Assembly (NCBI GenBank): GCA_025059745.1
Contig: JANXDH010000006.1
Location: 67,343-127,724 of the forward strand
DNA from: Aigarchaeota archaeon
Lineage (GTDB): Archaea > Thermoproteota > Nitrososphaeria_A > Caldarchaeales > Calditenuaceae
DNA: 60,382 bases
Reading direction: 5' to 3'
Part shown: one piece after another, positions 16,040 through 38,982 of the stretch
Layout: each line of letters starts with the position of its first letter
Position numbering within the stretch: position 1 is the first letter of the stretch
Position numbers and translations under genes: made by a program
Notes under the pieces: model-generated
Told to the model about the DNA's origin: nothing
What the model saw: only the letters and a program-made list of their open reading frames with translations
Databases searched by the model: none

Positions 16040-16978
16040 ATGCTTCCACCTGAGGAGATCTATGTCAGGGAGTTCCTCCCGGCCCTGAGAGGTCTCTTGG
16101 CGCACAGGATGAGGGAGCTCGGATACACCCAAGGTAAGATCGCGACGGCCCTTAAAGTCACTCAGGCCGCTGTAAGTCAGTACCTCTCCGAGGGTAAAGA
16201 GAGGTACGAGGCGAGGATAGCGTCGCTTGGTATACCCAAACGCGAGGTTGAGGCCCTGCTCGGATCGGTCGTTGGTAACCCGCTGGACCACAAAGCGAGT
16301 ACCGAGGCATTGATCCACGGTTGGAGGGACTTCTTGGGCAAGGGTTACCTCTGCGAGTACCACAGGAGCAGGTATCCCGAGCTGGTCGGTTGCGACGTCT
16401 GCATAATCACCTACAACAAGTCTTTCAACGAGGGCGACCGTTCGATATTGGAGAACTTGGAGTGGTGCGTGAAGGCAATAGAGGAGAGGCCGTACATGAG
16501 TCTCCTCTCACCTGAGGTCGGCATGAACATCGCCGAGTGCCTACACGGCGCTGGGAGTCCGCATCAGGTCGCTGCCATACCTGGGAGGATAGTGAGGGTG
16601 GGCGGGGGCCTCAAGGCAGTGAGTCGACCTGCGTTCGGCTCCTCTCAACACCTCGCGGCTATCTTGACATCGCTCAACAGGGTCCATCAAAAGGTCCGGT
16701 CCGTGATGAACATCAGGTTCGACCAATACGTGGAGCACGCCGTGAGGAGGTTGGGGTTGAAGTACGTCTACACGGGCGACCCTAAGGATCTGGTCGATGA
16801 GAACCAGATAATAAGGAGGGTGAGTCACTCTGTTTTAACGGATCCTAGTATCGATGTGGTCTTCGATAGAGGGGGACAAGGTTTTGAGCCTGCGACCTAC
16901 GTGTTCGGGGTCGATTCGGTCTCTGCGGTCAAGAAGGCCGTGGATCTAGCACGCGAGGTCCTCTCTCTCAAGACCTGA
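16040..16978 (+). CDS. HTH-ThiN domain protein, ThiR-like thiamine regulator
   Basis: A 312-residue protein. The N-terminal HTH (RELGYTQGKIATALKVTQAAVSQYLS, about residues 28-55) is followed by a Cys-containing linker (YLCEYHRSRYPELVGCDVC). A C-terminal ThiN domain spans about residues 150-308 (GMNIAECLHGAGSPHQVAAIPGRI, AFGSSQHLAAIL, NIRFDQYVE, FDRGGQGFEPATYVFG). In archaea the HTH-ThiN fusion acts as the thiamine-pathway repressor ThiR, with ThiN sensing thiamine phosphates. Fusions with ThiD are enzymes, but no ThiD is present, so regulator is the better call. An AT-rich box about 25 nt upstream suggests a leaderless ATG. The 3' end overlaps dtdA by 11 nt. Confidence 0.8.
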   Translation: MLPPEEIYVREFLPALRGLLAHRMRELGYTQGKIATALKVTQAAVSQYLSEGKERYEARIASLGIPKREVEALLGSVVGNPLDHKASTEALIHGWRDFLGKGYLCEYHRSRYPELVGCDVCIITYNKSFNEGDRSILENLEWCVKAIEERPYMSLLSPEVGMNIAECLHGAGSPHQVAAIPGRIVRVGGGLKAVSRPAFGSSQHLAAILTSLNRVHQKVRSVMNIRFDQYVEHAVRRLGLKYVYTGDPKDLVDENQIIRRVSHSVLTDPSIDVVFDRGGQGFEPATYVFGVDSVSAVKKAVDLAREVLSLKT

Positions 16979-19251: not shown

Positions 19252-20769
19252 TCAGGGCGTACCTATGATCGAGGTGAGGGTTTCCTTCTTAGGCTCCCTG
19301 ATTTGATCGAGATTGAGGAAGACCGCCCCTTGTTTCATCGCCAAGTCATAAAGCTCGTTGTCCAACGGTACCAGTGGCACAATAATGAGGTGCATTATGT
19401 CTAGGTCGGACTTGAGGATGAATAGCTTGATGAGCCTTCGCATGGCGGCCTCCCCACCCACGCGTAGGGTGATTATGAGTGCGCGGTACCTGTCGCCCGC
19501 CTTGACTGCAATATCGACGTCATAGATCGCACCCGACTTCCCGGTTATCTTCGCGTTACGCTCGACGACGAACCCCATCTCCCTGAGGGCGGTCAGGAGT
19601 GTCTTCTGCACCTCGATAGAGGCCTTGTATTTGGAGAGTACGTCTCGATTCACGGTATACCTATAGAACGGTTTCAACCCAGCGTCTGTTATCCCGTATC
19701 TCTCACCGCACGTCAGGCACTTGAATATGAGTATCGGTTCGATGAAGACGTCTCCGCAGTCCTCACACTTGAAGAAGGACGATTTTATCACACTCTCTGA
19801 GTGAATCTCTATGTCCCTTGTCAGGTCTACTCGACAGGTGGGACATATGTACGAGTGATTGAACTTGAACAGTGACTCAGGACCGACGGTCCTGCAGGTC
19901 GTATGTTGGAGGGTGATGGTCTTGAACAGCCTGTTACTAGAGCAGTTCCTGCATAGTAACTCGACGTTGTAAATACTGCTCGCACACTTCGGGCATTTAA
20001 TCGCTTTGAACTCGACGGATGCGGGCGTCAATACGCCGCGCTCACTCAACCTGATGATCACCTCGGTAGCCTCGTGAGAATTGACGTTCAGCATCTCCTC
20101 AACCATCGGGTACCTACCACCTAGGATCTCCGTCCTGTCAGGTACGGGAGTTATCTCGCGGATGCCTCTAGTATCGATGTACTCTATAAGAACCATCTCC
20201 CGGTCGGAGAGGGGGACGTCGCTGACTAGACTCTGAGGGGAGGGCTCCTCGACAATAGGCGTCGTTGCGGCCTCTACTACGGGAGTCGTTTCCTTGGGCG
20301 CTTTACTCGGTTGCGCCTCAACCTCATCCCTCTGAACGCTTTGGACTACATTGGGGGCGGGGACGGTCCTCGCCTCAGGTCTTCTCTGGACCTTCACAGC
20401 CTTACGCTTCTTGTTCGTCCTATAAATGACGAGCGTTACTAACGGAATAACGAGTAACAACTCCCAAAGTAATAAGTTTGTAAATTGATTGAAGAGGGAC
20501 GTTAGGAACGGTATACCCGTCTTGCCCTCAAAGATGGCCGTTCTCACCGCGACGGATAGAACGTAACCGGCGGGTGGTGAGACGAGTATCATAAGGGCCT
20601 TCAGTTTCAGCAGGTGCGTGATCCCTAGGACGGATAACGTTACTATTAAGACGGAGAAGACCTCAAGTAATAGTTGAGGAAGGAGCCCTGTGATCAATAG
20701 ATCAAGAAGAATCCATATAGATATGGCTAAACCTAAAGACGCTAGCGACCCGGACGCGGTAGCTCCCAA
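19252..20769 (-). CDS. Membrane protein with TackOD1-like zinc domain and nuclease-like C-terminal domain
   Basis: A 505-residue multidomain protein. About four membrane helices lie in residues 8-118, followed by a basic/Pro linker, then a winged-helix-like part (about 187-250). A zinc region of CxxC knuckles follows: CPKC, CRNC, then LQHTTCRTVGPESLFKFNHSYICPTC, CEDC and CLTC. The HTTC...CPTC...CEDC portion resembles TackOD1, the output domain seen in thaumarchaeal signalling proteins (recalled, not searched). The last 130 residues (VEVQKTLL-like, GAIYDVDIAVKAGDRYRALIITLRV) have a restriction-endonuclease-fold look with DVD...I-x-L in place of a clean D-ExK, so catalysis is doubtful. It is divergent from two pilin genes. 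The start TTG 20769 is preceded by GGTGAG. Confidence 0.6.
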   Translation of the reverse strand: MGATASGSLASLGLAISIWILLDLLITGLLPQLLLEVFSVLIVTLSVLGITHLLKLKALMILVSPPAGYVLSVAVRTAIFEGKTGIPFLTSLFNQFTNLLLWELLLVIPLVTLVIYRTNKKRKAVKVQRRPEARTVPAPNVVQSVQRDEVEAQPSKAPKETTPVVEAATTPIVEEPSPQSLVSDVPLSDREMVLIEYIDTRGIREITPVPDRTEILGGRYPMVEEMLNVNSHEATEVIIRLSERGVLTPASVEFKAIKCPKCASSIYNVELLCRNCSSNRLFKTITLQHTTCRTVGPESLFKFNHSYICPTCRVDLTRDIEIHSESVIKSSFFKCEDCGDVFIEPILIFKCLTCGERYGITDAGLKPFYRYTVNRDVLSKYKASIEVQKTLLTALREMGFVVERNAKITGKSGAIYDVDIAVKAGDRYRALIITLRVGGEAAMRRLIKLFILKSDLDIMHLIIVPLVPLDNELYDLAMKQGAVFLNLDQIREPKKETLTSIIGTP

Positions 20770-20962
20770 CTCTCACCAGTCTGTTTAATAAAATTAATGT
20801 CCTTTTTTTAACTTTTACCTTTCTATCCTCCGGCGTAATATTTGGACAATGAGGTGAGGCGTACACCGATCTGTCTTTATTGCTTGAGAATCTCATTACC
20901 CAGCAGATGTAGTGCAGATTCGGCCAAAGTACGAGTCCTGTGCGAGGTTAGGCCAGACAATA

Positions 20963-20970
20963 CTTTAATA
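20963..20970 (+). promoter_or_regulatory. TATA box for the pilin pair
   Basis: CTTTAATA ends 26 nt before TTG 20997, consistent with a leaderless TTG start. The 227-nt divergent region 20770-20996 otherwise shows only the AT-rich promoter of the opposite gene and no further feature that I can name. Confidence 0.4.
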
Positions 20971-20996
20971 TTAATTCAGAGGTTTTAGTCATATAA

Positions 20997-21491
20997 TTGA
21001 CAGGTAAGAAGGCCGTAAGCCCGATCGTGTCGACGGTGATCTTGACCGCAATAGTGATCTCTTTAGGTTTCATCATATGGGCTCTTAGTGCAGGATTATC
21101 GAGGCAGTTGGTCATAGACCTGAGCGTGGACTTGGATGAGAGGGTGGCCAACGTTAGGTCCTCGTTAGTGATCGAGTACGCAACTTACACACCAGACAAC
21201 TTGTTTTACATCTGTGTCTACAACAATTTAGAGACCCCGCTTAGGGTCGTCGATGTCATCTACCTTAACGTAAGTAGAAACCCACTCAACGACTTGACCC
21301 CTAGTCTAATCCTTGAATTACCCCCTAAATCAAAGAACGCCTTGTGCTTCAAAGACACGCCTCCAATCCTCATACCAAATTTAGTGATCGTCCAGGTGTG
21401 GGCGATGCCAGCGCATCTCTTCAGCCCGTCAGCACCTTTTGAAAGACTTGATAAGGCCGTCAAAGCCGAGAGGGAGGTCACTATACCATGA
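20997..21491 (+). CDS. Type IV pilin-like protein 1 (class III signal peptide)
   Basis: A 164-residue protein. The N terminus MTGKKAVSPIVSTVILTAIVI matches archaeal pilins: a short basic leader, cleavage expected after KKA, then VSPIVSTV and a hydrophobic helix to about residue 35. The remainder is a beta-rich ectodomain with two Cys. It would be processed by the PibD-type peptidase and assembled on or in the membrane. It overlaps the next pilin gene by ATGA, so the two products are probably made together. The start is TTG 20997. The size fits a minor or adhesive pilin. Confidence 0.8.
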   Translation: MTGKKAVSPIVSTVILTAIVISLGFIIWALSAGLSRQLVIDLSVDLDERVANVRSSLVIEYATYTPDNLFYICVYNNLETPLRVVDVIYLNVSRNPLNDLTPSLILELPPKSKNALCFKDTPPILIPNLVIVQVWAMPAHLFSPSAPFERLDKAVKAEREVTIP

Positions 21492-22585
21492 GTTCGCGCG
21501 GTCGGGGCATCTCCACGGTAATAGGAGGTTTAATAATGATCGCGATATTATTTAGTACATTTGTACCAATGTTCTTCTTCCGCGATCATATAGACCTAAA
21601 TTTCAATAGAGCGGTCTCAGAGAGGAGGTTGTTCGAGGACATGAGGGCGGCAGAGAAGTTGTCCAGTTCTGCCTACCAAGACTTCGCCGATGGTGGTAAG
21701 ATAAAGGTCTACGTAAGGAACGTAGGGAGCGTACCTCTGAGAGTTCTCAGGGTCTGGGTCGTAGATAAAACAACCCCAGATATTCCGAACGTCATAATCA
21801 CAGATCTCTTTCTGAACGCGTTTCAGAGCGGCGTAGTGATCAACACAGGTATCGTACCAGTAGTAAACAAACAATATAACGTCTTCTTAATAACCGAGAG
21901 AGGGAATCTTATTGTTCCCGTTGGTTCACCTATAATAGGGAAAAATCCATCCCCTCCACCTACTGATCCTCAGACCTTCCCGTACACTCTCTCCGTTACC
22001 TTGAAGAACACGTTACACGGAGCCATCTACAATCTGACACTGAAAGGTAACCTGCCTGGAGGAAAGACGACTTTGTTTCATAGGGCTACAGCTACGCGCT
22101 CAGACGTCTCGCTGGACTTCGGTGTATATCCGGGCAATTATACGTTGATCGTGAATGGCACTAGATTGGGCACACTATTAGTGCTCAAAACCCTTCAAGT
22201 CACGGTACCCGACGTGAGTAACGTCCTCGTAAACGTCGGAGTGGCGCCGATAGTCGGTTTCAGTGCGTTCGGAGATGCTCCCTATAAGGTCTGCGTCAAT
22301 GAGTTATTCGTGACGTCCCTCTACCTATTGAACACGGGTACAGTGGACCTCTACAATTTCAAGATAACATTTGATATAGTAGATGCGGGCTGGGATCTGT
22401 TTAGTACTCAAATTTATCAGATACCTAAATTGGCTGTGGACGAGATCGCTACCTTTACATGGTCAGTAAGAGCTCCCAGCAGCCCGGCGACCACTACGTT
22501 CAAGATCAGCATCTCTGGAAAAACGGAGGCTAATGTTTCAGTAGACGATGTAGTATATGTAGAAGTAACAGCTATTTCATGCTGA
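21488..22585 (+). CDS. Type IV pilin-like protein 2 with large ectodomain
   Basis: A 365-residue protein. A class III-like start, SSRGRGISTVIGGLIMIAILF, is followed by MFFFRDHIDLNFN. After the single hydrophobic helix there are repeated beta-sandwich-like segments: one around residues 70-150, then YTLSVTLKNTLHGAIYNLTLKG and a C-terminal part with LYLLNTGTVDLYNFKITFDI and APSSPATTTFKISISG, resembling CARDB/NEW3-type adhesion folds. It could be a surface adhesin carried on the pilus. It overlaps pilin 1 by 4 nt and ends 2 nt from the convergent platform gene. Confidence 0.7.
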   Translation: MSSRGRGISTVIGGLIMIAILFSTFVPMFFFRDHIDLNFNRAVSERRLFEDMRAAEKLSSSAYQDFADGGKIKVYVRNVGSVPLRVLRVWVVDKTTPDIPNVIITDLFLNAFQSGVVINTGIVPVVNKQYNVFLITERGNLIVPVGSPIIGKNPSPPPTDPQTFPYTLSVTLKNTLHGAIYNLTLKGNLPGGKTTLFHRATATRSDVSLDFGVYPGNYTLIVNGTRLGTLLVLKTLQVTVPDVSNVLVNVGVAPIVGFSAFGDAPYKVCVNELFVTSLYLLNTGTVDLYNFKITFDIVDAGWDLFSTQIYQIPKLAVDEIATFTWSVRAPSSPATTTFKISISGKTEANVSVDDVVYVEVTAISC

Positions 22586-22587
22586 TC

Positions 22588-24360
22588 TCAGGTCGCTCCA
22601 ATGACTGTGAAGATCGACATTACGTACGGTGAGAGTAAGAATGTTAGAATCATGATAAAGAGTATCAGCACAGAGTGCTTGAAGCCTGCAGCCACCGACT
22701 CCTCGCTCAACTTCCCTGCGACGAGGCCCATCATGGCTGCGTTTATTACTATGGGTGGCAAAAAGGTCCTTAGGAACTGATCGAACTCTAACGTCCTCCC
22801 GGCCAAGAGTAAGCTCTCCTTCATATACCCCAAGAGGGCTATCGAGGTAAATGCCAATAAAATTGCACCGATGTAGGGTATTATCACCAACGGCCTCATG
22901 CTGGATCTCCTCTTCTGCTCAATCGCCAGCAGCCTCTCATTGAACGAGCTCATAATGTCGAGGGTCTCTGGAGTCCCACCACCCACCTCTATAGAGTCGA
23001 AGAATGTGAAGAGGCTGATCTTCGTCAACCAGCTCCTTATACGTCCCTCTAGGTAGTTGTAGATCGATAGGAGTGAGGCACCCCAGGCCAGTTTATTTGC
23101 TATAATCTTCAGTATCTTATTGAATCGGCCGTAATTCTTTCCGGATAGCTCAATTATCGCCTTCTCAGGGTTCAGACCCGTCTTTCTGATCTCTACGACC
23201 TCCCTCATGAACTGCACCGCTCCCTTGAAGACGCTGCTCTCATACCTGCTTATTTTGATCTCGACGATGGCAGGCGGTATAAAGAGGACGATGAGGGATA
23301 CCGCGATGCTTATCGCGAGGTCGAAACCTCTACTGATTCCAAAATAATCGATCAGGATGTACTTAAAAACGTTGACGGGTGAGAAGATGAGTGACAGTTC
23401 AGGAGAGATGTAAGGAGCCAACAGAGCGATCAGTACGATGGAGGACGGTATTATCGAGATGAGGAGGACCCGGTAGGGTCTCATATCGTAATAGGGGTAC
23501 TTGATCTGGGAGATATCTGCCAAGTAGAGAAATATCACACTGATGAGGGGGAGCAAGAGGTAACTGAAGCTAAAGAAAGCCTCGATGCTCAAGAATTCCG
23601 CACCCACCCTCAGAGTCCTCGAGACCATGAACATCATGTAAAATCCTAATGCTAGGAGTACCGACGCGGCCAGATATGCCTCCATGTAGATTGAGAACCT
23701 CTCTATTAATGCGTTTATCTTCAACTCGAAGAGGTCGAAGATTAATTCAGCCCTCCTCTTGAAATAGCTCACTACATCCCCGCCGCTTCTGACCGTTGAA
23801 GCGTAACCCTTCAAGAGCTCCGAAAGGTCCCTCTGGGGGAGTATGGTAGCTATGTGCTCCGTCGATGATATCGGATCCAGCCACCAAGCCTTCGTTGATA
23901 TATCGATCATCCGGCTCACCTTTCCTATGGTTGGCGTCAATCCTATCCTGTCTAATCTCGAGAGGCTTGTGAACGGGTGAGTTCCACCTGAGATCATGAC
24001 GGCCATGTAAAAGGAGGCGTACGGGAACTCTGACTCTAATTTACTTTTGATATTTGAGGCGATGATCGAGGGATAGGTCAGTAAAAGAACGAATATTATA
24101 AACGGAATGCACATAGCTATGAGAGCTACTAAGAGACCTATCTGGGCAATTAGGAGGAGTACAGATATGATCACGGACGTAATCATGGAGACGAGTAGCC
24201 AGAAACCCAACATCCCAATGTAGGCCTCCGGATAGATCCGCACTCCTATGGACTTCAACCTCTCGGGGAGCCTGGGCGAGATGCTCAGTATTAGCGGAGT
24301 GAGCCACTCGTACCGTCTAGAGAGTTTCGTGAGGATGGATGCCGACCCCATGGTGACCAT
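22588..24360 (-). CDS. FlaJ/TadC-type pilus assembly membrane platform
   Basis: A 590-residue polytopic protein with two type II secretion F domains: the first in PTIGKVSRMIDISTKAWWLDPIS...GDVVSYFKRRAELI, the second in FKGAVQFMREVVEIRKTGLNPEKAIIELSGKNYGRF...VGGGTPETLDIM. Membrane helix clusters lie near residues 45-95, 225-320, 340-360 and 500-585. The doubled layout is typical of archaeal FlaJ/ArlJ-like proteins. It follows the ATPase at a 3-nt gap and would form the inner-membrane platform driven by it. No archaellum accessory genes (arlF, G, H) are present, so a pilus-like system is favoured over an archaellum. Confidence 0.88.
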   Translation of the reverse strand: MVTMGSASILTKLSRRYEWLTPLILSISPRLPERLKSIGVRIYPEAYIGMLGFWLLVSMITSVIISVLLLIAQIGLLVALIAMCIPFIIFVLLLTYPSIIASNIKSKLESEFPYASFYMAVMISGGTHPFTSLSRLDRIGLTPTIGKVSRMIDISTKAWWLDPISSTEHIATILPQRDLSELLKGYASTVRSGGDVVSYFKRRAELIFDLFELKINALIERFSIYMEAYLAASVLLALGFYMMFMVSRTLRVGAEFLSIEAFFSFSYLLLPLISVIFLYLADISQIKYPYYDMRPYRVLLISIIPSSIVLIALLAPYISPELSLIFSPVNVFKYILIDYFGISRGFDLAISIAVSLIVLFIPPAIVEIKISRYESSVFKGAVQFMREVVEIRKTGLNPEKAIIELSGKNYGRFNKILKIIANKLAWGASLLSIYNYLEGRIRSWLTKISLFTFFDSIEVGGGTPETLDIMSSFNERLLAIEQKRRSSMRPLVIIPYIGAILLAFTSIALLGYMKESLLLAGRTLEFDQFLRTFLPPIVINAAMMGLVAGKLSEESVAAGFKHSVLILFIMILTFLLSPYVMSIFTVIGAT

Positions 24361-24363
24361 CGT

Positions 24364-26172
24364 TTAGATGTTCTTTGCGACCACCCTGCCGCTCTTCTCG
24401 ACTTCTATTCTACCCGATGCCTGTAGGTTGTTGATGGTCCTCCAGAACACTTCCTCGCTCAGCCTACTATTCCTCAATAGATCGATTAAATTGCTCTCAC
24501 CGCCGCTCCTGATCAGCAGAGTCTCTATCGCGAAAGAGGCTTCAGATATAGCTGTGGTGGAGGCCGTTGCCAGTTTCTCTAGTTGAGTTACAGCTTCGCC
24601 GAACGCAGATGTTGGATCCTGATAGTATCTCGTTATCCTCTCAGTGACGTCCTCGATCTTGAGTATGTTGGACTTGGCCAGCCATTCGATATAAAGGGCC
24701 CTCTTGTGTAACTCGGTCAATAGCTCGTTGAGCTCGACCCCTATCCTCGAGGACATCTGCTGTAAGTGGTAGCTCTTCTCCAACTTCAGATTGAATTTGG
24801 AGGAGGGCTCATCGAACGATGTGATCTCATTGAACTCATCGTGCTTTATTATCTCCCAGCACCTCTTTACCCTCCTTACTGGGAGCCTGATATCTCCCCA
24901 GAACTTCTCCAGCGTCCTCTCTATCAGTATAACCGCATTGACCAGCGGTATGTTAGCTTGGTCTATCTCCATGGGCGGAGAGGTCAGCCGCGAGACAAGG
25001 GACGTTACGGATTCAGCGTGCACTGTAGTGAGACCGCCGTGTCCCGTAGCTATAGCTTGGAACAGCACGCTCGCCTCCTTCCCTCTCACCTCACCGACAA
25101 TAAGGTAATCCGGCCTGTACCTAAGACTGACCCTCACTAGATCGAAGAGCCCGATAGCAGAGGAAATCGTGCCCGTGAACCCGTAAGACTCACGCGTGAC
25201 CAGTCGGGTCCAGTTCTGATGCGTGATGTATATCTCGGGGGTCTCCTCTACCGTAACGATCTTGTGTGTGGGATAGAGGAGCGAACAGAGAGCGTTGAGC
25301 AGAGTAGTCTTCCCTGAGCCTGTGGCGCCTATTATCAGGATGCTAAACTTGTTCTCTAGCAGCAGCCACAAGTATGCGACCAGTTGAGAGGGTAGGACGC
25401 CGCTCCTGACGAGCTCGGCGATCGAGAATGGTTCCACCCTGAACTTCCTGATCGCGAAGGTGCCGCCCGATGGGGTGACCTCGTCACCATAGGTTGCGGC
25501 TATCCTGTGCTGTCCGGGTAATATCGCGTCGAGTATGGGGAAGGCCGTTGATATGTGTTTGCCGCTCCTGTGGGCCAGCATCACTATGTAGTCGTTGAGG
25601 ACCTCCCGTGACTCGAAGCTCAGGTTCGTCGGTAGTGATTCGTACCTCTTGTGAAAGACGTATATGGGGCGGTCTACGCCGTTACATGAGATGTCCTCGA
25701 TCTTGGGGTCCCTTAATATTGGTTCTAAATGTCCTAACCCGTTGAAGTTACGTGAGAGGTAATATCTTATCTTCCTCAGCTCGTCCTGGTTCAGACCCCT
25801 TATCAACCAGCCGTACTTCTTGAACGTCCTGTCGAGGAACTTGTTCAGTATTAATTGAGGGTCACTGTCATCGGGCGCGAGTTCTCTCGGATCTAGTTCG
25901 GCCTCTATCACCTCGCCTATCTCCTTCAGGGCCTCTAGTCCCCTAGGGGTGAGGGAGGGTTCTTCAACAAAGTAGACCGTTTGATTCTCCTCAGGTACAA
26001 TAGCAATGGTAACCTTAGCGAAGGGTTCTATAACCCAGTAGGACTCGATGGTTACTGCGTCACGCGGTAGACGTCTCCTAACTATCCCAAAGAAGCGCTC
26101 TTTCTCGGCCACCTGACCTTCAGACCTGACTATCCGATTTTGAGAACTGAGATATAACGTTTGAACGCTCAA
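24364..26172 (-). CDS. FlaI/GspE-type pilus assembly ATPase
   Basis: A 602-residue secretion ATPase. An N-terminal domain of about 150 residues leads into NFNGLGHLEPILRDPKIEDISCNG. The RecA-like core has Walker A IIGATGSGKTTLLNALC, an Asp-box around KIVTVEETPEIYI, Walker B DYLIVGEVRGKEASVLFQA and the His box GHGGLTTVHAES. A C-terminal extension of about 160 residues after the core carries helical repeats (LEKLATASTTAI...SEEVFWRTINNLQASGRIEVEKSGRV), the last part looking like a winged helix; this is longer than in archaellum FlaI. It is the third gene of the binding-protein operon, 28 nt after the lamin-tail gene. Confidence 0.9.
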   Translation of the reverse strand: MSVQTLYLSSQNRIVRSEGQVAEKERFFGIVRRRLPRDAVTIESYWVIEPFAKVTIAIVPEENQTVYFVEEPSLTPRGLEALKEIGEVIEAELDPRELAPDDSDPQLILNKFLDRTFKKYGWLIRGLNQDELRKIRYYLSRNFNGLGHLEPILRDPKIEDISCNGVDRPIYVFHKRYESLPTNLSFESREVLNDYIVMLAHRSGKHISTAFPILDAILPGQHRIAATYGDEVTPSGGTFAIRKFRVEPFSIAELVRSGVLPSQLVAYLWLLLENKFSILIIGATGSGKTTLLNALCSLLYPTHKIVTVEETPEIYITHQNWTRLVTRESYGFTGTISSAIGLFDLVRVSLRYRPDYLIVGEVRGKEASVLFQAIATGHGGLTTVHAESVTSLVSRLTSPPMEIDQANIPLVNAVILIERTLEKFWGDIRLPVRRVKRCWEIIKHDEFNEITSFDEPSSKFNLKLEKSYHLQQMSSRIGVELNELLTELHKRALYIEWLAKSNILKIEDVTERITRYYQDPTSAFGEAVTQLEKLATASTTAISEASFAIETLLIRSGGESNLIDLLRNSRLSEEVFWRTINNLQASGRIEVEKSGRVVAKNI

Positions 26173-26200
26173 GATCGGCGAAGAGCACCTAATATGCCCC

Positions 26201-27001
26201 CTATCTGTTCGGCTCTCCCCGGGTGCCCCGTCTCAGGTCCCAGATGTCCGATCCGTCAGGCACCCTCTGCAGTGTGAAGTCGTTCGAGAAGAGATCTGTG
26301 AGACCGCTATTTAGCACGCACGGCGTCCCGTTGATGTAGTGCTCCTGGGTGTCCCTGAGGATTATGCATGCGTTCGAGTTGGGGATGAAGTCACCGCTAC
26401 TCATCTCTATGACCACGTATCCGTTCGGCTGGATCACGGTGCCGTTGGGGATTGTCGTGAGGAGCATTATACCCGCGAAGAGCTTCCACCTGCCCACATT
26501 GACCGGGAAGCTGTTCGGGTTGTAGAGCTCGATCCACTCTCTAGATCCTGAGGGAGGGTTCGACTCGACCTCATTGATGATTATTGGTCTGGACTCGATA
26601 ATGCGCGTAGTGGTGAACGACTGAGTGTATGTAACGGTCGATATCGAGGTGTGGGTGGTTACCGATGTAGTCGTCACGCTGGTGGTCAAAGTCGTGGACG
26701 TGGTGACGGTGAGCCTGAGCATCTCCGTTAAGATAGAGGTTGTTGTCTGAAGCTGAGTCATAGTCTCCCTGATCGTCAGGAAAACCAAGGAGTTCTGAGT
26801 TAGTATGATCGGTGATGTCACGGTATAGTACACACTTCTGGTCTCAGTGGCATATACTGTAGAGATTTGGTCCCTTGAGAAAGCTGATGCGCCACCGATA
26901 AATCCCCCAAGGACTCCCACGGCTATAGCCACTATTATAATTACTGGCAGTAGTACTTTATGTCTCTCGCTCCTATAAGGGAACACGGATGACCCACCCA
27001 T
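26201..27001 (-). CDS. Membrane-anchored lamin-tail-domain protein with Thr-rich stalk
   Basis: A 266-residue protein. A short cytosolic basic N terminus leads to one membrane helix (VLLPVIIIVAIAVGVLGGFIGG, about residues 15-37). A Thr/Ser-rich stalk of about 100 residues follows (TVTTSTTLTTSVTTTSVTT), then a lamin-tail domain at about 135-245 with IIINEVESNPPSGSREWIELYNPNSFPVNVGRWKLF and NGYVVIEMSSGD. The domain is an Ig-like fold common in secreted archaeal and bacterial proteins, often next to surface or nuclease domains. The stalk is a likely O-glycosylation target. Its stop is 28 nt from the ATPase start and its start abuts the binding-protein stop, so it belongs to that operon. Confidence 0.8.
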   Translation of the reverse strand: MGGSSVFPYRSERHKVLLPVIIIVAIAVGVLGGFIGGASAFSRDQISTVYATETRSVYYTVTSPIILTQNSLVFLTIRETMTQLQTTTSILTEMLRLTVTTSTTLTTSVTTTSVTTHTSISTVTYTQSFTTTRIIESRPIIINEVESNPPSGSREWIELYNPNSFPVNVGRWKLFAGIMLLTTIPNGTVIQPNGYVVIEMSSGDFIPNSNACIILRDTQEHYINGTPCVLNSGLTDLFSNDFTLQRVPDGSDIWDLRRGTRGEPNR

Positions 27002-28855
27002 TTAAAGATGAGCATTTAAATGATGAGGGGAAACAGTCCGGGTCGTATTTTTACGAGAAAGTGGACGTATGACTCGACTAATACCTGTAGTTCTCCTGTA
27101 GTGCCTTATGCCCAGAGCTATCATGATGAGGATCCCCAATACCATCAGACCGGAGATGGCCGCGACGGTGACGTAGACCCACTCTGGCGCGATCTCTAAA
27201 TATCTCTCAACCACTCTCGTATGGGTCTCGTAGGAGGTTACCAGGACCTTCGTGGTCAACGTAGTGGTCACCCTCTCTATCAGCAGTAGTCTCTCATTAT
27301 GAGCCATGACACGGAGAATTGAGAACGGTGAGAGGGGATGCCACTGACCTATCTCATCGACAACTCCACTCCTGTAAGCGGTCAACCTTATCGACGCCAC
27401 CACGGGTATCAATGGCAGATCACGACTGAGGACGTTTCCTATAGTACTTATCAACCTCGCCCGGTAACTTGGGTCGATCTCGCTGTCTAACTGGTAGATC
27501 AGTGATGGAAGGAGGGGGTCGTTGTAGCGCGACCAGTTGGACCTGCCGGTAGGTGTCAATAGGTCCGCGTAGACCTCTCGCAGGTCATCTCCATAACCGA
27601 CCTCTAGGATCACCACATCGTAACCTCCCTGAGCGTAGTACTCCCCTAGCTTAGATGCATTTAGATTGATTTCGGTAACTCTGATCCCGAGGTCCTTGAG
27701 GGTCGAGGAGAAGTACCGTCCCACCTTGACCGCCCATGCACTATCAGACTGAACTCCGACCCTTATCATCAGCTCCTTATTGTGACCATCAACCCAGCGT
27801 CCGTCAGGGGTTCTGGTGTATCCTGCATCCCTGAGCAATGACGTTGCAACAGTAACGTTACGCTCGATTACGACGCTCCTCTCCCTCACGAGCCAGTTGA
27901 ATTTAGATGATAGGAGGTCGAGACCTATCAACTCCGCTGGACCGTCTAACACGTCGAGGAGTCTCCTCGTGTCCATCAACTGATAGATCGCCATCCTGAG
28001 AGCTCTATTACCAGTTAGTTCTCCCTTGACGTTGAAGAAGATCACTAACAACCGGTCACCGGCTATAGAGACTGGGACCGTCCTACCGTCTGTAAGTCGT
28101 TGCAGATCTACAGGCGAGAAGGGATAACCAGCCACTAGATCAATATCACCCCTTATCAGGCCGTCAATTAATGCCCCCGTAGCCGGGTAACTCCTCAGAC
28201 GCAGAATGAAGTTTTTTGATAACGGGTGTCTGTAGCTCTCAAAGGGAGCCAGTTCTACGATGTGACTCTCCGATCGGATGAGACGAAAAGGACCTGAACC
28301 TACGAGTCGCGGCAAGTTAGGACTTAATGGGTCCACGTTCTCGAATGAGCGACGCTGAACGATGGGGACCTTCGATAGGACCGATAGAGCCCTGTAAGCT
28401 TTGGGGGTGACTATCTCAAAAGTCCTCTTGTCTAGGACGTTCACGCTCTTGATGAGGTTCGAGAGGCCGTAGACGTCTAATCGGCTAGCGTACTTGGGCG
28501 AGGTGATTGTGGATAACGTGAATATCACGTCGTCCGAGGTGACCTCACTACCGTCGTGCCAGAGGGCCTTATCGGATAAACGAAACCTCAACCTGTCCCT
28601 CTCGATTGCCTCGTATTCTGCCAACCATGGCAATATCCGCCCATCCATCCCTATCGTCACCAGTGGTTCGTATATCAAGCATAGTATCGACAGGGAGGCT
28701 TCTCCCCTAGCAATGAACGGGTTGAGGCTAGCTTGCTCACCGTTTAAGCCCATCCTCAGGACGTTGGCGGTCTGGGACGCGGTGTTCGGCGTTGTTATAG
28801 TAATAAAGCCTACAATTATCAGGACAATGATTGTCAGGCTTTTAAGAGTGCCCAT
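27002..28855 (-). CDS. Family 5 (oligopeptide-type) solute-binding protein, membrane anchored
   Basis: A 617-residue protein with an N-terminal Sec signal helix (SLTIIVLIIVGFITIT), then the SBP_bac_5 fold: MGLNGEQASLNPFIARGEASL, WHDGSEVTSDDVIFTL, then PALRMAIYQLMD-like and LLRDAGYTRTPDGRW segments. A C-terminal membrane helix at about residues 569-592 (VYVTVAAISGLMVLGILIMIALG) is followed by a basic tail. The two-ended anchor is common in archaeal binding proteins. No permease or ABC ATPase lies nearby. Instead it heads an operon with a lamin-tail protein and pilus assembly genes, with a 0-nt gap to the next gene. Peptide or sugar ligands are both possible. Confidence 0.85.
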   Translation of the reverse strand: MGTLKSLTIIVLIIVGFITITTPNTASQTANVLRMGLNGEQASLNPFIARGEASLSILCLIYEPLVTIGMDGRILPWLAEYEAIERDRLRFRLSDKALWHDGSEVTSDDVIFTLSTITSPKYASRLDVYGLSNLIKSVNVLDKRTFEIVTPKAYRALSVLSKVPIVQRRSFENVDPLSPNLPRLVGSGPFRLIRSESHIVELAPFESYRHPLSKNFILRLRSYPATGALIDGLIRGDIDLVAGYPFSPVDLQRLTDGRTVPVSIAGDRLLVIFFNVKGELTGNRALRMAIYQLMDTRRLLDVLDGPAELIGLDLLSSKFNWLVRERSVVIERNVTVATSLLRDAGYTRTPDGRWVDGHNKELMIRVGVQSDSAWAVKVGRYFSSTLKDLGIRVTEINLNASKLGEYYAQGGYDVVILEVGYGDDLREVYADLLTPTGRSNWSRYNDPLLPSLIYQLDSEIDPSYRARLISTIGNVLSRDLPLIPVVASIRLTAYRSGVVDEIGQWHPLSPFSILRVMAHNERLLLIERVTTTLTTKVLVTSYETHTRVVERYLEIAPEWVYVTVAAISGLMVLGILIMIALGIRHYRRTTGISRVIRPLSRKNTTRTVSPHHLNAHL

Positions 28856-28883
28856 CCTTCTGTTTACAAAGTTCCACTAAAAT

Positions 28884-28891
28884 AATTAAAT
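28884..28891 (-). promoter_or_regulatory. TATA box for the binding protein-pilus operon
   Basis: ATTTAATT on the minus strand, 29 nt before ATG 28855. It is the only clear promoter for the four-gene minus-strand unit 28855-22588. Confidence 0.4.
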
Positions 28892-29022
28892 CTTAACCTG
28901 CCCGCATGGCCAAAGATCAATAGAAACACCTCATTGAGACGTATACAGACAAGTTCTACCGTTAGACATTATTTAAAATCGGCCGTTCTATGAGAAGTCC
29001 ATGCAAAAGACCGTACATTAGA

Positions 29023-29030
29023 TTTATATA
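29023..29030 (+). promoter_or_regulatory. TATA box for pilin 3
   Basis: TTTATATA, ending 25 nt before ATG 29056, a strong box with leaderless spacing. It is divergent from the binding-protein operon. Confidence 0.55.
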
Positions 29031-29055
29031 TTAGTTTATCCCCATACGGTTAAAG

Positions 29056-29475
29056 ATGATCCATACCAAAAACGTCAGAAGGTCAAGAGGCATAAGCCCG
29101 TTGATAGCGACGATAATACTAGTCGTGATAACGATAGTCCTCTCCCTTGGAGTGGCGTTCTGGTCTAACTCGCTAGTCTCGTCGTTCTCGAGTACAGAGA
29201 GGTTGGAGGTCAGGTTAATAGCGGTCTCGCCTACACTATTCCAGATGCAGCTAAAGAACGTGGGTAGCTTTGATATTCAGATCACCGATATACTGACGAT
29301 GACAAACGGCGTTCAAGTAACTAGATATACTGTGTGGGGAGGCCTTAGCGTATTAACTCCAGGTCAGACTGCGAGGGCGAGTTCGGCCCACGCTGTGCCG
29401 AGGGGTGCGTCCTTTGATGTCTGTGTAATAACCACATTAGGAAACACATATTGTGCGGTAGGTACCGTCCCCTAA
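29056..29475 (+). CDS. Type IV pilin-like protein 3
   Basis: A 139-residue protein with a class III signal: basic leader MIHTKNVRRSRG, then ISPLIATIILVVITIVLSLGVAFW as the assembly helix. The small beta-rich ectodomain has two Cys close to the C terminus (FDVCVITTLGNTYCAVG) that could form a disulfide. It is short and simple, so it is a candidate major pilin of the locus. A glycosyltransferase gene follows 8 nt later in the same direction, suggesting joint expression. Confidence 0.8.
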   Translation: MIHTKNVRRSRGISPLIATIILVVITIVLSLGVAFWSNSLVSSFSSTERLEVRLIAVSPTLFQMQLKNVGSFDIQITDILTMTNGVQVTRYTVWGGLSVLTPGQTARASSAHAVPRGASFDVCVITTLGNTYCAVGTVP

Positions 29476-29483
29476 CCTGAAAG

Positions 29484-30467
29484 ATGCCTTTACAAGAGGG
29501 AAAGTTCGATACAGACGACTGTTTTATAACGTTTCGTAACGAAGTCGAGGGGCCACTAGTTAGCGTAATAATAGCGAGTAGGAACGGGAAAGTAAGATCT
29601 CTTGATAGGTTGATGGCGGGAGATCTCATCGAGGTCATAGTCGTCAGGGGGAGGTCTCCTGGAATGAACAGGAACATCGGTGCCATAGTGAGTAAGGCGG
29701 AATACCTGGCCTTTATCGATGATGATGCCGTAATGGACTCGCATACTTTACTGAAATGCCTTAGACACTTCTCAGACGGGAACGTAGGGGTCGTCGGTGG
29801 CCCAAACTTAACGATGGAGAATTCAACGCTCTGGGAGAGGGTGAGTGGATACGCATTGGCTTCACCCCTGGGTAGCTCGACGATGAGGTGGAGGTACAGC
29901 GCCATGCGGGGAATCGTCAAAACAGATGAGAGGGCTTTGACCAGTTGTAACCTCATTATAAGGAGGGGCGTCTTCTTCGCCGCAGGGGGTTTCCCAGAGA
30001 AGATCTATCCTGCAGAGGAGAACGTATTGCTCCATAGGATCTCGAGACTCGGTTACACACTGATCTATGACTCAGAGTTCGTCGCCTATCATAAGAGGCG
30101 CGGATCCCTCATTGGTCACATAGTTCAGGTATTCAGATATGGAAGGGGACGAGCGATGATGCTGAAGGTTTGTCCGGATGCGTTCAAACCCATATTTGTA
30201 ATGCCCTCAATAGGACTCATCACGATTTGCAGCACGCTCACCTTAGCATCGATCGGGGCCCTTTCACTGCTGATCCCCCTCACGCTGCTCTCGACATACC
30301 TCTCCGCTACGGCTTTTGAGTCCATCAGAACGTCCATCGTTAACCGAGATCTAAGGGCACTACCTGCATTGATGATACTGATGCCGCTACACCACTTAGC
30401 CTACGCTTTAGGGTTCACAAGGGGCCTACTCTCAAGGAAGGTTGATGGACGTAAGGGCCTGGGATAA
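29484..30467 (+). CDS. Family 2 glycosyltransferase with C-terminal membrane helices
   Basis: A 327-residue GT-A enzyme. LVSVIIASRNGK starts the nucleotide-sugar fold, and FIDDDAVMD near residue 77 is the metal-binding DxD. NLIIRRGVFFAAGGFPEKIYPAEENVLLHRISRLGY carries the acceptor/catalytic ED-like motif. Two membrane segments follow near residues 235-270 and 295-310. It probably transfers a sugar to a lipid-linked or surface acceptor at the cytosolic face. Its position 8 nt after pilin 3 makes pilin or stalk glycosylation an attractive but unproven role. Confidence 0.85.
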   Translation: MPLQEGKFDTDDCFITFRNEVEGPLVSVIIASRNGKVRSLDRLMAGDLIEVIVVRGRSPGMNRNIGAIVSKAEYLAFIDDDAVMDSHTLLKCLRHFSDGNVGVVGGPNLTMENSTLWERVSGYALASPLGSSTMRWRYSAMRGIVKTDERALTSCNLIIRRGVFFAAGGFPEKIYPAEENVLLHRISRLGYTLIYDSEFVAYHKRRGSLIGHIVQVFRYGRGRAMMLKVCPDAFKPIFVMPSIGLITICSTLTLASIGALSLLIPLTLLSTYLSATAFESIRTSIVNRDLRALPALMILMPLHHLAYALGFTRGLLSRKVDGRKGLG

Positions 30468-30646: not shown

Positions 30647-32074
30647 ATGAGGGGGTGGTCGATTAGAAATCCAGTTCTCTGGAGAATCGTCCAGGCGCTC
30701 ATTCTAATCACAGTGCCGCTAACAATAAGGCTGGGAGTGTGGTTCACCCAAGTCGCTTCAACTCTAGGGTTGGCTACATGGGATATCGAGCTCTACCGGG
30801 ACATGGGCTCGTCGTTCGTCAGTAATTTCATCTCGGGTAACCTGACTGCCTACCCCATTGTAGGTAACCCTCCTCTCGGCCTCGCGTTCATAGGGGCCCT
30901 GCTCCCCCTGACTGAGAGGTTAGTGACACCGCCCATCGACGTGCTCTTGATCCCGATATTGTTCTCCGCGTTGACCTGCTGGATCATATATCTCGTGGGT
31001 AGCCGCTACTCTTGGAAGGTAGGACTCATTGCTTGGGGCCTGGTGTCTTTTGACCCGTACTCGATCCAGTTCTCTGCAACGTTCCTAGACCCTATAATGA
31101 ACTTCTTCATATCCATCGCGATATACCTGACCGTTAACGACTACCTCAGGTCTTTCAGGGGAGTTATACTCTTATCCTTTGTCCTATCTCTGGCTGTGAT
31201 AACCAAGTTAACCGCAGCGATCTTAGTCCTACTCTTCTCGGTCCTCTACGCCATTACTTTCAGGGAGTTCAAGAAGGGGCTGCTAATTTTGGTGGTCACT
31301 GGTGCACTGGCCTTCGGCCTTACCGTCCAGAACTGGACACTGGAGGGGTTGAGGGAGTTCTTTGTAGGCACGGGGAAGATGGTTGGGCCGGGTACACCGA
31401 CTTTCAATACTCTCAGATTGCCTGTTATCTTCGGCCCCTTCGACATAGGCATGTTGATAGCTTATCCGTGGTACCTCCTCACCTACCTTGGAATCGGTTA
31501 CATACACAGGAGCGTCCTGCCGTACGTCTCCCACATGCTCCTCCTAGTATTAGTGTTAGTATTGTCGTTAGTTTATCGGGGTGTCAAGTCCGATAGAACG
31601 CTCACGTTGTGGATGTCCGCGTCCATACTCAGCATCACGTTCCTGCCTCGTAACTACTGGACAGCTAACTGGGCAGAGGGGTTTGTCGTTGGTATAATAG
31701 CGAAACAGTTCTATCCGTATTACTTCTTAGTGACCCTACCGGCTTTATCGTTGTTTCTCGCTCACTTAATTGTTGGGAGAAGACAGACTGAGGGGGCTGA
31801 TGTCTCCTCGTGGAGTAAGCTACTTTGGGTGCCGATTCTATCGTTTGCGGCTTTGGCTCCGATACCGTTCGTTATGCTCAGCATGCGGATGCCCTACTGG
31901 GACTTCATCTTCACCCTCATATATAATTACTGGAAGGACAGCAGCTTCATAGTTGGTTATTACGCGTTCCTATTAACGGTAGTGATCCTGATATATCTAG
32001 TGGCCTTTGTAGTGATGATGATGCGGAGAATCTTCCGCTCACAGGAGCACCTTGATCAGACTGCCCTGACCTAA
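30647..32074 (+). CDS. GT-C fold membrane glycosyltransferase (PMT/ArnT-like)
   Basis: A 475-residue protein with about 11 membrane helices. The first external loop has acidic residues (WDIELYRDMGSSF), the place where GT-C enzymes keep catalytic Asp/Glu, followed by NPPLGLAFIGALL. It resembles the dolichyl-phosphate-mannose-protein mannosyltransferase/ArnT group, which moves sugars from polyprenyl phosphate to acceptors outside the cell. With the adjacent GT2 gene it may form a two-step surface glycosylation path for the Thr-rich proteins nearby. It overlaps a convergent gene by 36 nt. The 179-nt gap before it (30468-30646) holds only AT-rich promoter-like sequence. Confidence 0.75.
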   Translation: MRGWSIRNPVLWRIVQALILITVPLTIRLGVWFTQVASTLGLATWDIELYRDMGSSFVSNFISGNLTAYPIVGNPPLGLAFIGALLPLTERLVTPPIDVLLIPILFSALTCWIIYLVGSRYSWKVGLIAWGLVSFDPYSIQFSATFLDPIMNFFISIAIYLTVNDYLRSFRGVILLSFVLSLAVITKLTAAILVLLFSVLYAITFREFKKGLLILVVTGALAFGLTVQNWTLEGLREFFVGTGKMVGPGTPTFNTLRLPVIFGPFDIGMLIAYPWYLLTYLGIGYIHRSVLPYVSHMLLLVLVLVLSLVYRGVKSDRTLTLWMSASILSITFLPRNYWTANWAEGFVVGIIAKQFYPYYFLVTLPALSLFLAHLIVGRRQTEGADVSSWSKLLWVPILSFAALAPIPFVMLSMRMPYWDFIFTLIYNYWKDSSFIVGYYAFLLTVVILIYLVAFVVMMMRRIFRSQEHLDQTALT

Positions 32075-36322: not shown

Positions 36323-37081
36323 ATGCCGGAGATCGTAGTGCAAGGACTAACCAAGACCTTCATCCACAAGACCACCGGACAGAAAGTAACCGCCATCGAG
36401 AGACTTGATTTCGAGATAGGCGAGGGTGAGATAGTCGGTATAGTCGGCAAGACAGGTTGTGGGAAGTCTACCTTTCTCAGCATTCTGTTGGGAGTTGAGA
36501 GACCGACCGAGGGCCGCGTTCTTGTGGACGGAAAAGAGCCGTACAGAGACTTTTACTACTTCAAGGGCAAGATATCAGCGATCTTCCAACAGGACTTACT
36601 CCTTCCCTGGAGGACTGCGATAGAGAACGTCAAGTTAGGACTCGAGATACTGAATTACCCGAAGGAGAAACAGATAGATATATCGAAGGCTTGGTTGGCA
36701 AAGGTCGGCCTAGAGAAGTTCTTGAACTCCTATCCTGGAGAACTATCCGGGGGTATGAGACAAAGGGTGGCCATCGCAAGGGCCTTTGCCATAAACCCCG
36801 AGATTATACTGGCCGATGAGGCCTTCGGACACCTAGACGTCGTAACGGCCACTACTCTGAGGGAGGACTTCAACAGGCTAGTTAGGGAGCAGAAGAAGAC
36901 CGCTGTAATCGTCACCCACCAACTCGACGAGGCCGTGGACATGGTCGATAGGGTACTGGTGTTTGGCAGACCCGCTAGGTTGGTGGCAGATCTACAAGTA
37001 CCAAACGGTGCAAAACAGTCTATATCGGAGAAAAAGGAGTTCGTGGAACGTTTACATAATCTCATTGAGAATAGCGGTTAG
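36323..37081 (+). CDS. NitT/TauT-type ABC transporter ATP-binding protein
   Basis: A 252-residue ABC ATPase. Walker A is GKTGCGKSTFLSIL, the Q-loop FQQDLLLPWRTAIENV, the signature LSGGMRQRVAIARAF, Walker B IILADEAFGHLD and the H-loop VTHQLDEA. The LLPWRTAIENV segment is typical of the SsuB/TauB/NrtD group. GGTAGGAG abuts the ATG. The permease and binding protein of the same type lie convergently on the other strand and overlap its 3' end by 4 nt, so the ATPase is not cotranscribed with them. The tail SEKKEFVERLHNLIENSG is normal. Confidence 0.92.
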   Translation: MPEIVVQGLTKTFIHKTTGQKVTAIERLDFEIGEGEIVGIVGKTGCGKSTFLSILLGVERPTEGRVLVDGKEPYRDFYYFKGKISAIFQQDLLLPWRTAIENVKLGLEILNYPKEKQIDISKAWLAKVGLEKFLNSYPGELSGGMRQRVAIARAFAINPEIILADEAFGHLDVVTATTLREDFNRLVREQKKTAVIVTHQLDEAVDMVDRVLVFGRPARLVADLQVPNGAKQSISEKKEFVERLHNLIENSG

Positions 37082-37839
37082 CCAGTAGGCGCCAACCTCC
37101 AACCCAAGAACCTCGACTCAGCCCTGCCTATAACGTACTCCAGCATGAGAGCGATTCCGACTAGGACGAGTGTCCACGCGATTATACCGCCCATGTTGAA
37201 GGTGGACTGATTGACGAACATCATGTATCCTATGCCTGTCGTAGCTCCGACCAGTTCAGCGATCAGCACCACCCTCACGCTCAGTCCTATCGCGGCCTTC
37301 CATGCAGTGAGCACGTTAGGTATAACAGAGGGGAGGATTAGTTTCATGAACAATTGGCGTCTGGTCGGCCTAAACGAGTAGACCATAGTATAGGGCTCCC
37401 TCGGTATACCCTTCACACCATCGAGCGTGTTATATACGAAGATGGGGAGGTTGATCATCATCAGTATGGTGATTATCCTAGCCTCGGTCTCCGCCAGCCA
37501 GATTATAATGATGAGTATCCAGCTGAGGGCTGGTATTCCGTTGATGAAGTGAACCAGCGGGATGACCCTGCTCTCTACCCTCCTGAAGATGCCCATCAGT
37601 ATCCCTAGTATGAAGCCTACGGAGAAGGCCACAACAAGGCCGATGAGGACCCTGTATAGTGTGGAGATTAGATGGGGATACTGTCTAGTCAGCGCTATCA
37701 TTATCTCGTTGAAGATCCGATCGAGGGGTGGGACTAGATAATACGGCATGAAATTGCTCGATAACTGCCATAAGAGGGCCAAAATAATGAACGTGGTTAC
37801 GGTTGCCTCGATCTTCCTGAGGTTTTTCCACTCGGCCAA
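37078..37839 (-). CDS. NitT/TauT-type ABC transporter permease
   Basis: A 253-residue permease with six membrane helices and the EAA-type loop YTMVYSFRPTRRQLFMKLILPSVIPNVLTAWKAAIGLS that docks the ATPase. The end VIGRAESRFLGWRL is characteristic of the SsuC/TauC family. It follows the binding-protein gene with a 15-nt gap on the same strand. Its last 4 nt overlap the convergent ATPase gene, an unusual arrangement for partners of a single transporter. Confidence 0.92.
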   Translation of the reverse strand: MAEWKNLRKIEATVTTFIILALLWQLSSNFMPYYLVPPLDRIFNEIMIALTRQYPHLISTLYRVLIGLVVAFSVGFILGILMGIFRRVESRVIPLVHFINGIPALSWILIIIIWLAETEARIITILMMINLPIFVYNTLDGVKGIPREPYTMVYSFRPTRRQLFMKLILPSVIPNVLTAWKAAIGLSVRVVLIAELVGATTGIGYMMFVNQSTFNMGGIIAWTLVLVGIALMLEYVIGRAESRFLGWRLAPTG

Positions 37840-37854
37840 CTTAGTCTCCCTGTT

Positions 37855-38982
37855 TTAAGGCGATGCTCTTATACCCGTGTAGAAGAACGCGTCGTCAGGA
37901 ACTCTCTCTACGAATCCTAGCCGGTTAGTCTCAGTCAATAGTTTGAGTATCGAGTCTTTCTCCATGTGTGCCGGTTTAACGAGGAACCTCAACCTGTCCT
38001 TCTCGAAGGCGTCTCTTAGTATGTCCTCTGCGACTCCGGTACGCCTACTGATGATCTTGAGTGCCTCCTCCGGGAAGTCCATTATGAACTTGGCGGCGTC
38101 TCTATGGGCCAGGTATACCCTCTCGACTATGGCAGGTTGGGTTCTCAAGACCTCGTCCCATGCAGCTATCCCCAGTAGGAAGTGGTACTTCGTGCCAGTT
38201 CTCTCTCTCCATACCTGCTCTAACTGCTGTATAGTGAATAGAGACACATACTTTCTCGGGTCCTGCATCTCCAACCTAGAGGGGACGGTCTCCCATCCGA
38301 TACCTGCTACCGCCCTACCCGTTGGTGCGGTTAACTCAGTTACAACCGCTGCGTGCTCAAAGTTTTGGAACTGAATCCTTGCCAAGTCCGCGCCCAACCA
38401 CCGCATATATACCTGCATGGCTCTAGTGTTCTCAGCTGCCAGCGGTCCTGCGACGAGCTTGCCCTCTAGATCTCTTACGGTATTAACGTCAGGGGCTCTC
38501 TCCTTGTTGATTATGAGTGCTGTCCCGAAGAGCGTCAACGTCGCAAAGACCTTCGCGGGGACTCCCCTCGCGTACATGTTCGCGAAGGTCATGAAACCTC
38601 CATGACCTATCTTGTACCTACCGGCTGTGAAGTCGTTGTAGAGTGCCGCGGTACCAGGTTGGAATACCCATTCTATCTCTATGCCGTACTTCCTGTCGAG
38701 GCCTAGCTCTTGTATTATTAGGGCGGGCCAGGAACCCTGCGACGGGGGTGCTAAAAGTCCTACAGCGATCTTAGTCAGATTCGCCGCTGGCGTCGCGGTA
38801 ACGGTAACGGGCACGGTTCTCGTGGTAACGACTGTAGTGGTTACCGTCCTAGCTCCGCCTGGACCAGTTACCGTCGTTGTGACCGTCACCGGACCTACAG
38901 AAGTCACGTATACCCCGAAGACTGAGCCCACTATCAGTAACGCCACTATAGCGATCACCATACCAACCTTGTAGTTCGCCAC
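37855..38982 (-). CDS. NMT1/SsuA-like solute-binding protein
   Basis: A 375-residue protein. An N-terminal membrane helix (VGMVIAIVALLIVGSVFGVYV) is followed by a Thr/Val-rich linker of about 35 residues (VTTTVVTTRTVPVTVTA). The NMT1/SsuA-type fold starts at KIAVGLLAPPSQGSWPALIIQELGLDRKYGIEIEWVFQPG, with FAGRYKIGHGGFMTF-like contact loops. The family carries sulfonates, nitrate-like anions, taurine or thiamine precursors; the ligand cannot be chosen from sequence. GTG 38982 is preceded by AGGTGAT. The permease gene follows directly. Confidence 0.88.
   Translation of the reverse strand: MANYKVGMVIAIVALLIVGSVFGVYVTSVGPVTVTTTVTGPGGARTVTTTVVTTRTVPVTVTATPAANLTKIAVGLLAPPSQGSWPALIIQELGLDRKYGIEIEWVFQPGTAALYNDFTAGRYKIGHGGFMTFANMYARGVPAKVFATLTLFGTALIINKERAPDVNTVRDLEGKLVAGPLAAENTRAMQVYMRWLGADLARIQFQNFEHAAVVTELTAPTGRAVAGIGWETVPSRLEMQDPRKYVSLFTIQQLEQVWRERTGTKYHFLLGIAAWDEVLRTQPAIVERVYLAHRDAAKFIMDFPEEALKIISRRTGVAEDILRDAFEKDRLRFLVKPAHMEKDSILKLLTETNRLGFVERVPDDAFFYTGIRASP

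Follow-up and report, generated by a model that had tools for sequence, protein, structure and literature searches.

What does it mean for an archaeal pilus motor to share an operon with a solute-binding protein? The question is raised by a 60,382-nucleotide stretch of contig JANXDH010000006.1 from an Aigarchaeota archaeon (hereafter the window), in which positions 19,252 to 30,467 hold, on one strand, the genes of a family-5 binding protein (SBP5), a protein with a lamin-tail domain (LTD), a FlaI-type ATPase and a FlaJ-type platform protein, with pilin-like genes on both sides. An earlier note had suggested a surface uptake or adhesion machine analogous to the Sulfolobus bindosome. We take the locus to be a non-archaellum type IV pilus (T4P) of a Caldarchaeales archaeon, of the ordinary adhesion type and a diverged member of the TACK group, and the SBP5-LTD pair at the head of its motor operon to be a lineage-specific two-gene addition, which is the unusual part of the locus and an arrangement that no relative has. 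The genome (1.17 Mb, or 1166 kb, in six contigs; 88.8% complete) was compared with 43 other genomes of the order Caldarchaeales (formerly Aigarchaeota); 905 kb of it were read directly, and the remaining quarter or so was covered by whole-genome family searches only. Window proteins were matched to Pfam (SBP_bac_5, LTD, T2SSE, T2SSF, TackOD1 and Glycos_transf_2) and, for the pilin, ATPase and platform models, to NCBIfam.

When the open reading frames, strands and gaps were derived anew, they agreed with the earlier note on a four-gene minus-strand operon, SBP5-LTD-FlaI-FlaJ, with gaps of 0, 28 and 3 nt. The pilin-like plus-strand genes that it placed on either flank, pilA (20997-21491) and pilC (29056-29475), score above the bar of the archaellin/pilin N-terminal model. 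Between pilA and the operon lies pilB (21488-22585), which overlaps pilA by 4 nt (20997-22585, plus strand), begins with an N-terminus of the same kind as the pilins (SRGRG/ISTVIGG, the slash marking the cut) and can be aligned with pilin-like genes of relatives; a low-confidence model built from five sequences (pLDDT 52) predicts a long N-terminal helix followed by a beta-rich body, and pilB is a possible minor pilin or tip adhesin. A class III scan, which accepts only G or A in front of the cut and would therefore miss K-S sites, returned pilA, pilB and pilC as the only clear class III proteins in the 905 kb read directly. The parts expected of a T4P are thus present: an assembly ATPase with a TadC/FlaJ-type platform, class III pilins at the locus and a prepilin peptidase in the genome. 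The peptidase had been listed as absent; a Peptidase_A24 protein is in fact encoded on another contig (C3:522300), with 29.7 bits against a cut-off of 26.5.

The same machinery recurs in relatives as a set of three class III pilins, a FlaI-type ATPase, a FlaJ-type platform, glycosyltransferases and a TackOD1 protein. We compared 26 loci of Caldarchaeales that centre on a related FlaI and, because several of their contigs end early, give the counts as lower bounds: FlaJ is found in at least 23 of the 26, pilC in at least 16, pilA in at least 14 and pilB in at least nine, and a homologue of the GT39-like gene in at least eight, making it a recurrent pilus neighbour. Loci such as G023:C20, G019:C8 and those of HRbin02 and SKYB103 share with the window FlaI, FlaJ, the pilA and pilB pair, pilC, the GT39-like gene and a membrane TackOD1 protein; in the nearest relatives, G019 and G023, the FlaI-FlaJ-pilB-pilA-TackOD1 order is the same, with TackOD1 inverted. 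Unlike the window, loci of relatives are without SBP5 or LTD. In most of the Caldarchaeales loci FlaI and FlaJ are convergent or separate, whereas in the window they form one operon. Many also carry an extra four-gene minor-pilin cassette that was not found in the 905 kb read directly; this conserved cassette, whose large pilin-like products have about 380, 580-640, 180-240 and 430 residues, occurs in L351, L352, L353, L043, L045, L048, L053 and L063. Another variant layout is seen at L062:8859-18288 (G058), where two FlaI/FlaJ pairs stand in tandem, the second FlaJ split, and are followed by a soluble TackOD1 gene. The pilins, the ATPase/platform pair and their conservation in the order together argue for a surface pilus machine, as the earlier note had it.

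The TackOD1 protein of the window has four N-terminal hydrophobic segments, a proline-rich linker, a zinc domain (residues 189-373) and a C-terminal alpha/beta domain, and seven further Caldarchaeales genomes (G019, G023, G017, G027, G002, G003 and G011) have membrane orthologues that adjoin pilus genes. Its place beside the pilus motor is thus kept in relatives. The association is not new, since TackOD1 (arCOG06883) has been published in thaumarchaeal T4P loci (Makarova 2016, PMC4858521; Galperin 2018, PMC5847659), where it is likewise a zinc-ribbon protein coded beside a pilus ATPase and platform; the window protein differs from that form in its N-terminal membrane segments and C-terminal domain. 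Inspected by eye, the latter (residues 385-505, approximately) resembles a PD-(D/E)XK/Mrr-like nuclease fold without the catalytic lysine.

To which pilus lineage does the motor belong? Trees of the ATPase (a 139-row FastTree and a 57-row IQ-TREE, with anchors taken from Sulfolobaceae genomes according to their NCBIfam UpsF and BasE matches) join the window protein to those of G019 and G023 in one clade (SH-aLRT 100), among T4P ATPases of Caldarchaeales, Thermofilaceae, Brockarchaeota, Bathyarchaeota and Nezhaarchaeota. It falls outside three separate clades: one of Sulfolobaceae BasE and UpsE (SH-aLRT 99), one of archaellum ATPases (100) and one of a third Sulfolobaceae group of about 580 residues (100), which we presume to be AapE, a label that comes from its size and from exclusion and has no model behind it. 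The branch of the window ATPase is long (0.96), so that its exact sister group is less certain than its exclusion from the named clades. The ATPase thus falls in a T4P clade of TACK archaea, of presumed pilus function, and does not join the BasE/UpsE, archaellum or presumed AapE clades, the families with which the earlier note had proposed to compare it. Model scores agree: the ATPase reaches 240 bits against the BasE model (cut-off 1000) and 337.8 bits against ArlI (cut-off 550), and the platform 69.7, 65.5 and 46.9 bits against UpsF, BasF and ArlJ, all far under their cut-offs. We therefore rejected both a Sulfolobus Aap or Ups pilus, given the position of the ATPase outside the presumed AapE and the UpsE clades, and an archaellum, with which the locus has FlaI/FlaJ homologues and class III filament proteins in common. 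The earlier note's statement that archaellum accessory genes are missing holds for the locus, where there is no ArlF, ArlG or ArlH, but not for the genome, whose true archaellum locus lies on contig C3 at about 309-316 kb. The ArlI of that locus (G000:C3:311680-314637, equal to L073:8680-11637) holds an intein (TIGR01445, residues 393-475), and the pilus FlaI genes of G031, G034, G038 and G049 are 1073-1124-residue frames split at approximately the same query position (375), as if by inteins at the same site.

The head of the operon is of another kind. SBP5 consists of a short Sec-type signal (its N-terminus, MGTLKSLTIIVLIIVGFITITTPNTASQTAN, reads as one), the SBP5 domain, a short Thr-rich stretch, a C-terminal transmembrane (TM) helix and a basic cytosolic tail. 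It has a family-5 domain, a Sec signal and a C-terminal TM helix in common with archaeal Dpp/Opp ATP-binding cassette (ABC) transporters, from which it differs in that no DppB, DppC, DppD or DppF is encoded nearby or was found in the genome. In a whole-genome family search it was the sole PF00496 protein, and among the nine BPD_transp_1 matches of this 88.8% complete genome there is no DppB/DppC pair. On C3 they make up a phosphate-type pair accompanied by a PhoU-like gene; C2 encodes a fused two-domain iron-type permease, a phosphonate-type system and a pair adjoining an ATPase; a tungstate/molybdate-like system is found on C6 and an NMT1-type system in the window. These labels were read from gene order and protein sizes except in the window, where Pfam gives the assignment. 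The Dpp-like ATPases proved, where tested, to be ECF, Liv-type and drrA-type proteins, and no dedicated Dpp ATPases were found. By comparison, among the eight best SBP5 homologues of the phylum all eight have Dpp permease genes just downstream. From these three observations (a single PF00496 protein, no DppB-DppC, dpp-type operons around the best homologues) we conclude that an ABC-type binding protein stands alone before a pilus motor. This strengthens the earlier description of SBP5 as an orphan; the accompanying statement that no ABC permease is present is true of the interval, outside which the window has a thiamine-precursor-type permease (37078-37839) with its own binding protein.

SBP5 is also strongly diverged. 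Its closest relative shows 25% identity (E 4e-35), which is to say that it has no close homologue, and in a tree its branch is very long and is joined to no sister with support; a single-sequence structure prediction was unusable (pLDDT 35). After the TM helix it continues for 34 mostly basic residues, against 3-15 in 23 anchored homologues, making it the longest tail of the 24; the extension could be a contact site gained later or simply the outcome of a lost stop codon. Its neighbour LTD has an N-terminal membrane anchor, a stalk of about 90 residues with 48% Ser/Thr and the lamin-tail domain at residues 138-218. An alternative start is possible at a GTG some 15 codons into the frame that follows an AGGAG.

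Neither protein is a regular companion of the pilus. In none of the 26 Caldarchaeales loci does SBP5 or LTD lie beside the pilus ATPase, so that the binding protein and the LTD gene are not conserved neighbours in relatives; SBP5 is beside FlaI in none of 80 named loci (48 of them shorter than 20 kb), and LTD in none where both were placed. Two flagged loci (L086 and L147) turned out to contain ABC ATPases weakly matched by the FlaI profile. No LTD orthologue turned up among the other 43 Caldarchaeales genomes, in a search confined to the phylum, and a match in G017 covers the anchor and Ser/Thr stalk only, in a protein without an LTD domain by Pfam. We therefore rejected a conserved SBP5, LTD and FlaI/FlaJ module, and the conserved order of family-5 binding protein, LTD, FlaI/FlaJ and TackOD1 that the earlier note envisaged fails at its first two members, which are absent from the pilus loci of all relatives examined. 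The GC contents of SBP5 (0.513) and LTD (0.524) match the locus and give no composition signal of a recent foreign origin. The slot that the pair fills in the window is occupied in two Caldarchaeales genera by an ABC ATPase and a protein of about 507 residues with 11-13 TM segments and no Pfam match, directly upstream of the pilus FlaI (L047:10966-13262; also L040, L041, L049, L050, L052, L053 and L055).

From these observations, we lean towards a T4P variant particular to this lineage, in which the motor is expressed together with SBP5, a surface receptor or adhesin that has no transporter. The prepilin peptidase on C3 would trim the pilins, which are probably glycosylated, and FlaI and FlaJ would polymerise them into a filament predicted to serve adhesion or aggregation; we propose adhesion because archaeal T4P commonly serve that purpose. 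SBP5 and LTD, sharing the operon, would be made together with the motor but would not be its substrates: they would reach the surface by Sec, where each would be held by an anchor of its own in the membrane. Formerly an ABC binding protein and now without a permease, SBP5 would act as a surface receptor or adhesin, not in uptake, with the stalked LTD protein as its partner and with production keeping pace with that of the pilus; its cytosolic tail could give it a partner inside the cell. Several points weigh against this account. SBP5 and LTD in a pilus operon are known from a single, incomplete metagenome-assembled genome (MAG), and with one MAG and no replicate a misassembly or chance insertion is possible; at 88.8% completeness a separate dpp permease could have been missed; and the long tail could reflect the simple loss of an ancestral stop codon.

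How does this compare with the bindosome? The Sulfolobus system (BasABC, BasEF) likewise has pilins, a motor pair of FlaI/FlaJ type and a connection with a solute-binding protein, and the single operon for binding protein and motor would suit an uptake machine whose FlaI/FlaJ pair handles SBP5, and LTD, as pilin-like subunits to be assembled or localised. However, bindosome substrates are defined by class III signals, cut by PibD (PMC2910488), and the scan (G or A required before the cut) found no clear one on SBP5 or LTD, although a permissive pattern accepting K-S would match SBP5 residues 5-6. SBP5 is moreover a family-5 protein with a C-terminal anchor of its own, its gene lies inside the motor operon, the ATPase is outside the BasE/UpsE clade and far under the BasE cut-off, and no permease was found that could take over the solute. 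Given the signal type, the ATPase clade and the lack of conservation in relatives, we rejected bindosome membership, and with it the analogy of the earlier note; as far as sequence can tell, SBP5 is not presented by the pilus machinery, and we regard a bindosome-like machine as very improbable.

A more serious competitor, which we nevertheless doubt, is that SBP5 is still an ordinary uptake protein that works with an unassembled Dpp permease or makes use of a foreign one, and that it lies in the pilus operon only incidentally. The family-5 domain is intact, the Sec signal and C-terminal TM helix are the architecture of relatives' dpp binding proteins, and the genome is incomplete; yet neither a DppB/DppC pair nor dedicated Dpp ATPases were found, the tail is unlike those of the 23 anchored homologues, and the gene is packed tightly against LTD and the motor genes. 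That same tail, basic and the longest of the 24, together with the position of SBP5 as first gene of the operon and the presence of a pilus-associated TackOD1 protein that is membrane-bound with a large soluble domain, would fit a pilus-controlling receptor: ligand capture by the anchored SBP5 would be relayed through the TM helix and tail to FlaI/FlaJ or TackOD1, and pilus assembly would respond to an extracellular peptide-like ligand. We consider this improbable, as folding or binding by the tail is purely conjectural, stop-codon loss explains the tail equally well, and TackOD1 is kept in relatives without SBP5 at the locus. Finally, the pair might have been joined to the motor by a chimeric contig, as could be supposed from a single MAG, an arrangement seen in no relative and a binding protein without close homologue; but the contig is 127.7 kb long, the 0- and 28-nt junctions leave the reading frames intact and the composition is like the rest of the locus, and we give an assembly artefact hardly any credence.

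The features of the locus are collected in the table. Upstream of SBP5, a TATA-like stretch (TTTAATTATTTTAG), read by eye, stops about 21 nt short of the start codon, as would suit a putative leaderless transcript. Elsewhere in the window are a small ABC system of the thiamine-precursor type (ATPase, permease and NMT1/THI5-like binding protein; 36323-38982) and a ThiN gene (16040-16978).

Table. Features of the pilus locus in window coordinates; a slash in a class III signal marks the cut.
Feature	Position	Strand	Evidence
Membrane TackOD1 protein, 505 aa	19252..20769	minus	Pfam TackOD1 3e-29; hydropathy; orthologues beside pilus genes
pilA, small pilin, class III signal KKA/VSPIVSTVI, TTG start	20997..21491	plus	TIGR02537 9.7e-7; class III scan
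pilB, 365-aa pilin-like protein, class III signal GRG/ISTVIGG	21488..22585	plus	Class III scan; orthologues adjoining pilA in relatives
FlaJ/TadC-type platform membrane protein	22588..24360	minus	T2SSF 2.3e-15
FlaI/VirB11-type pilus assembly ATPase	24364..26172	minus	T2SSE 3.8e-34; trees
LTD surface protein	26201..27001	minus	Pfam LTD 4e-12; composition
Orphan family-5 binding protein SBP5, 617 aa	27002..28855	minus	SBP_bac_5 1.1e-38
Putative operon promoter, AT-rich, TATA-like TTTAATTATTTTAG	28856..28990	minus	Sequence reading by eye only
pilC, UpsA-like pilin, class III signal RSRG/ISPLIATI	29056..29475	plus	TIGR02537 4.3e-8; UpsA 2.5e-11
Family-2 glycosyltransferase	29484..30467	plus	Glycos_transf_2 4e-8; homologue in 1/26 Caldarchaeales pilus loci (L045)
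Polytopic membrane protein, probable GT39/OST type	30647..32074	plus	9 hydrophobic segments; no Pfam match; outside the studied interval

If the operon was joined by chance, the locus would be one more diverged member of the pilus system catalogued for TACK archaea. If the co-expression is functional, an ABC binding protein would here have parted naturally from its transporter to become associated with a pilus, along a different path from the one taken in the Sulfolobus bindosome. Nutrient sensing and surface attachment would then be connected in a way that can be tested, in a lineage represented mainly by MAGs.

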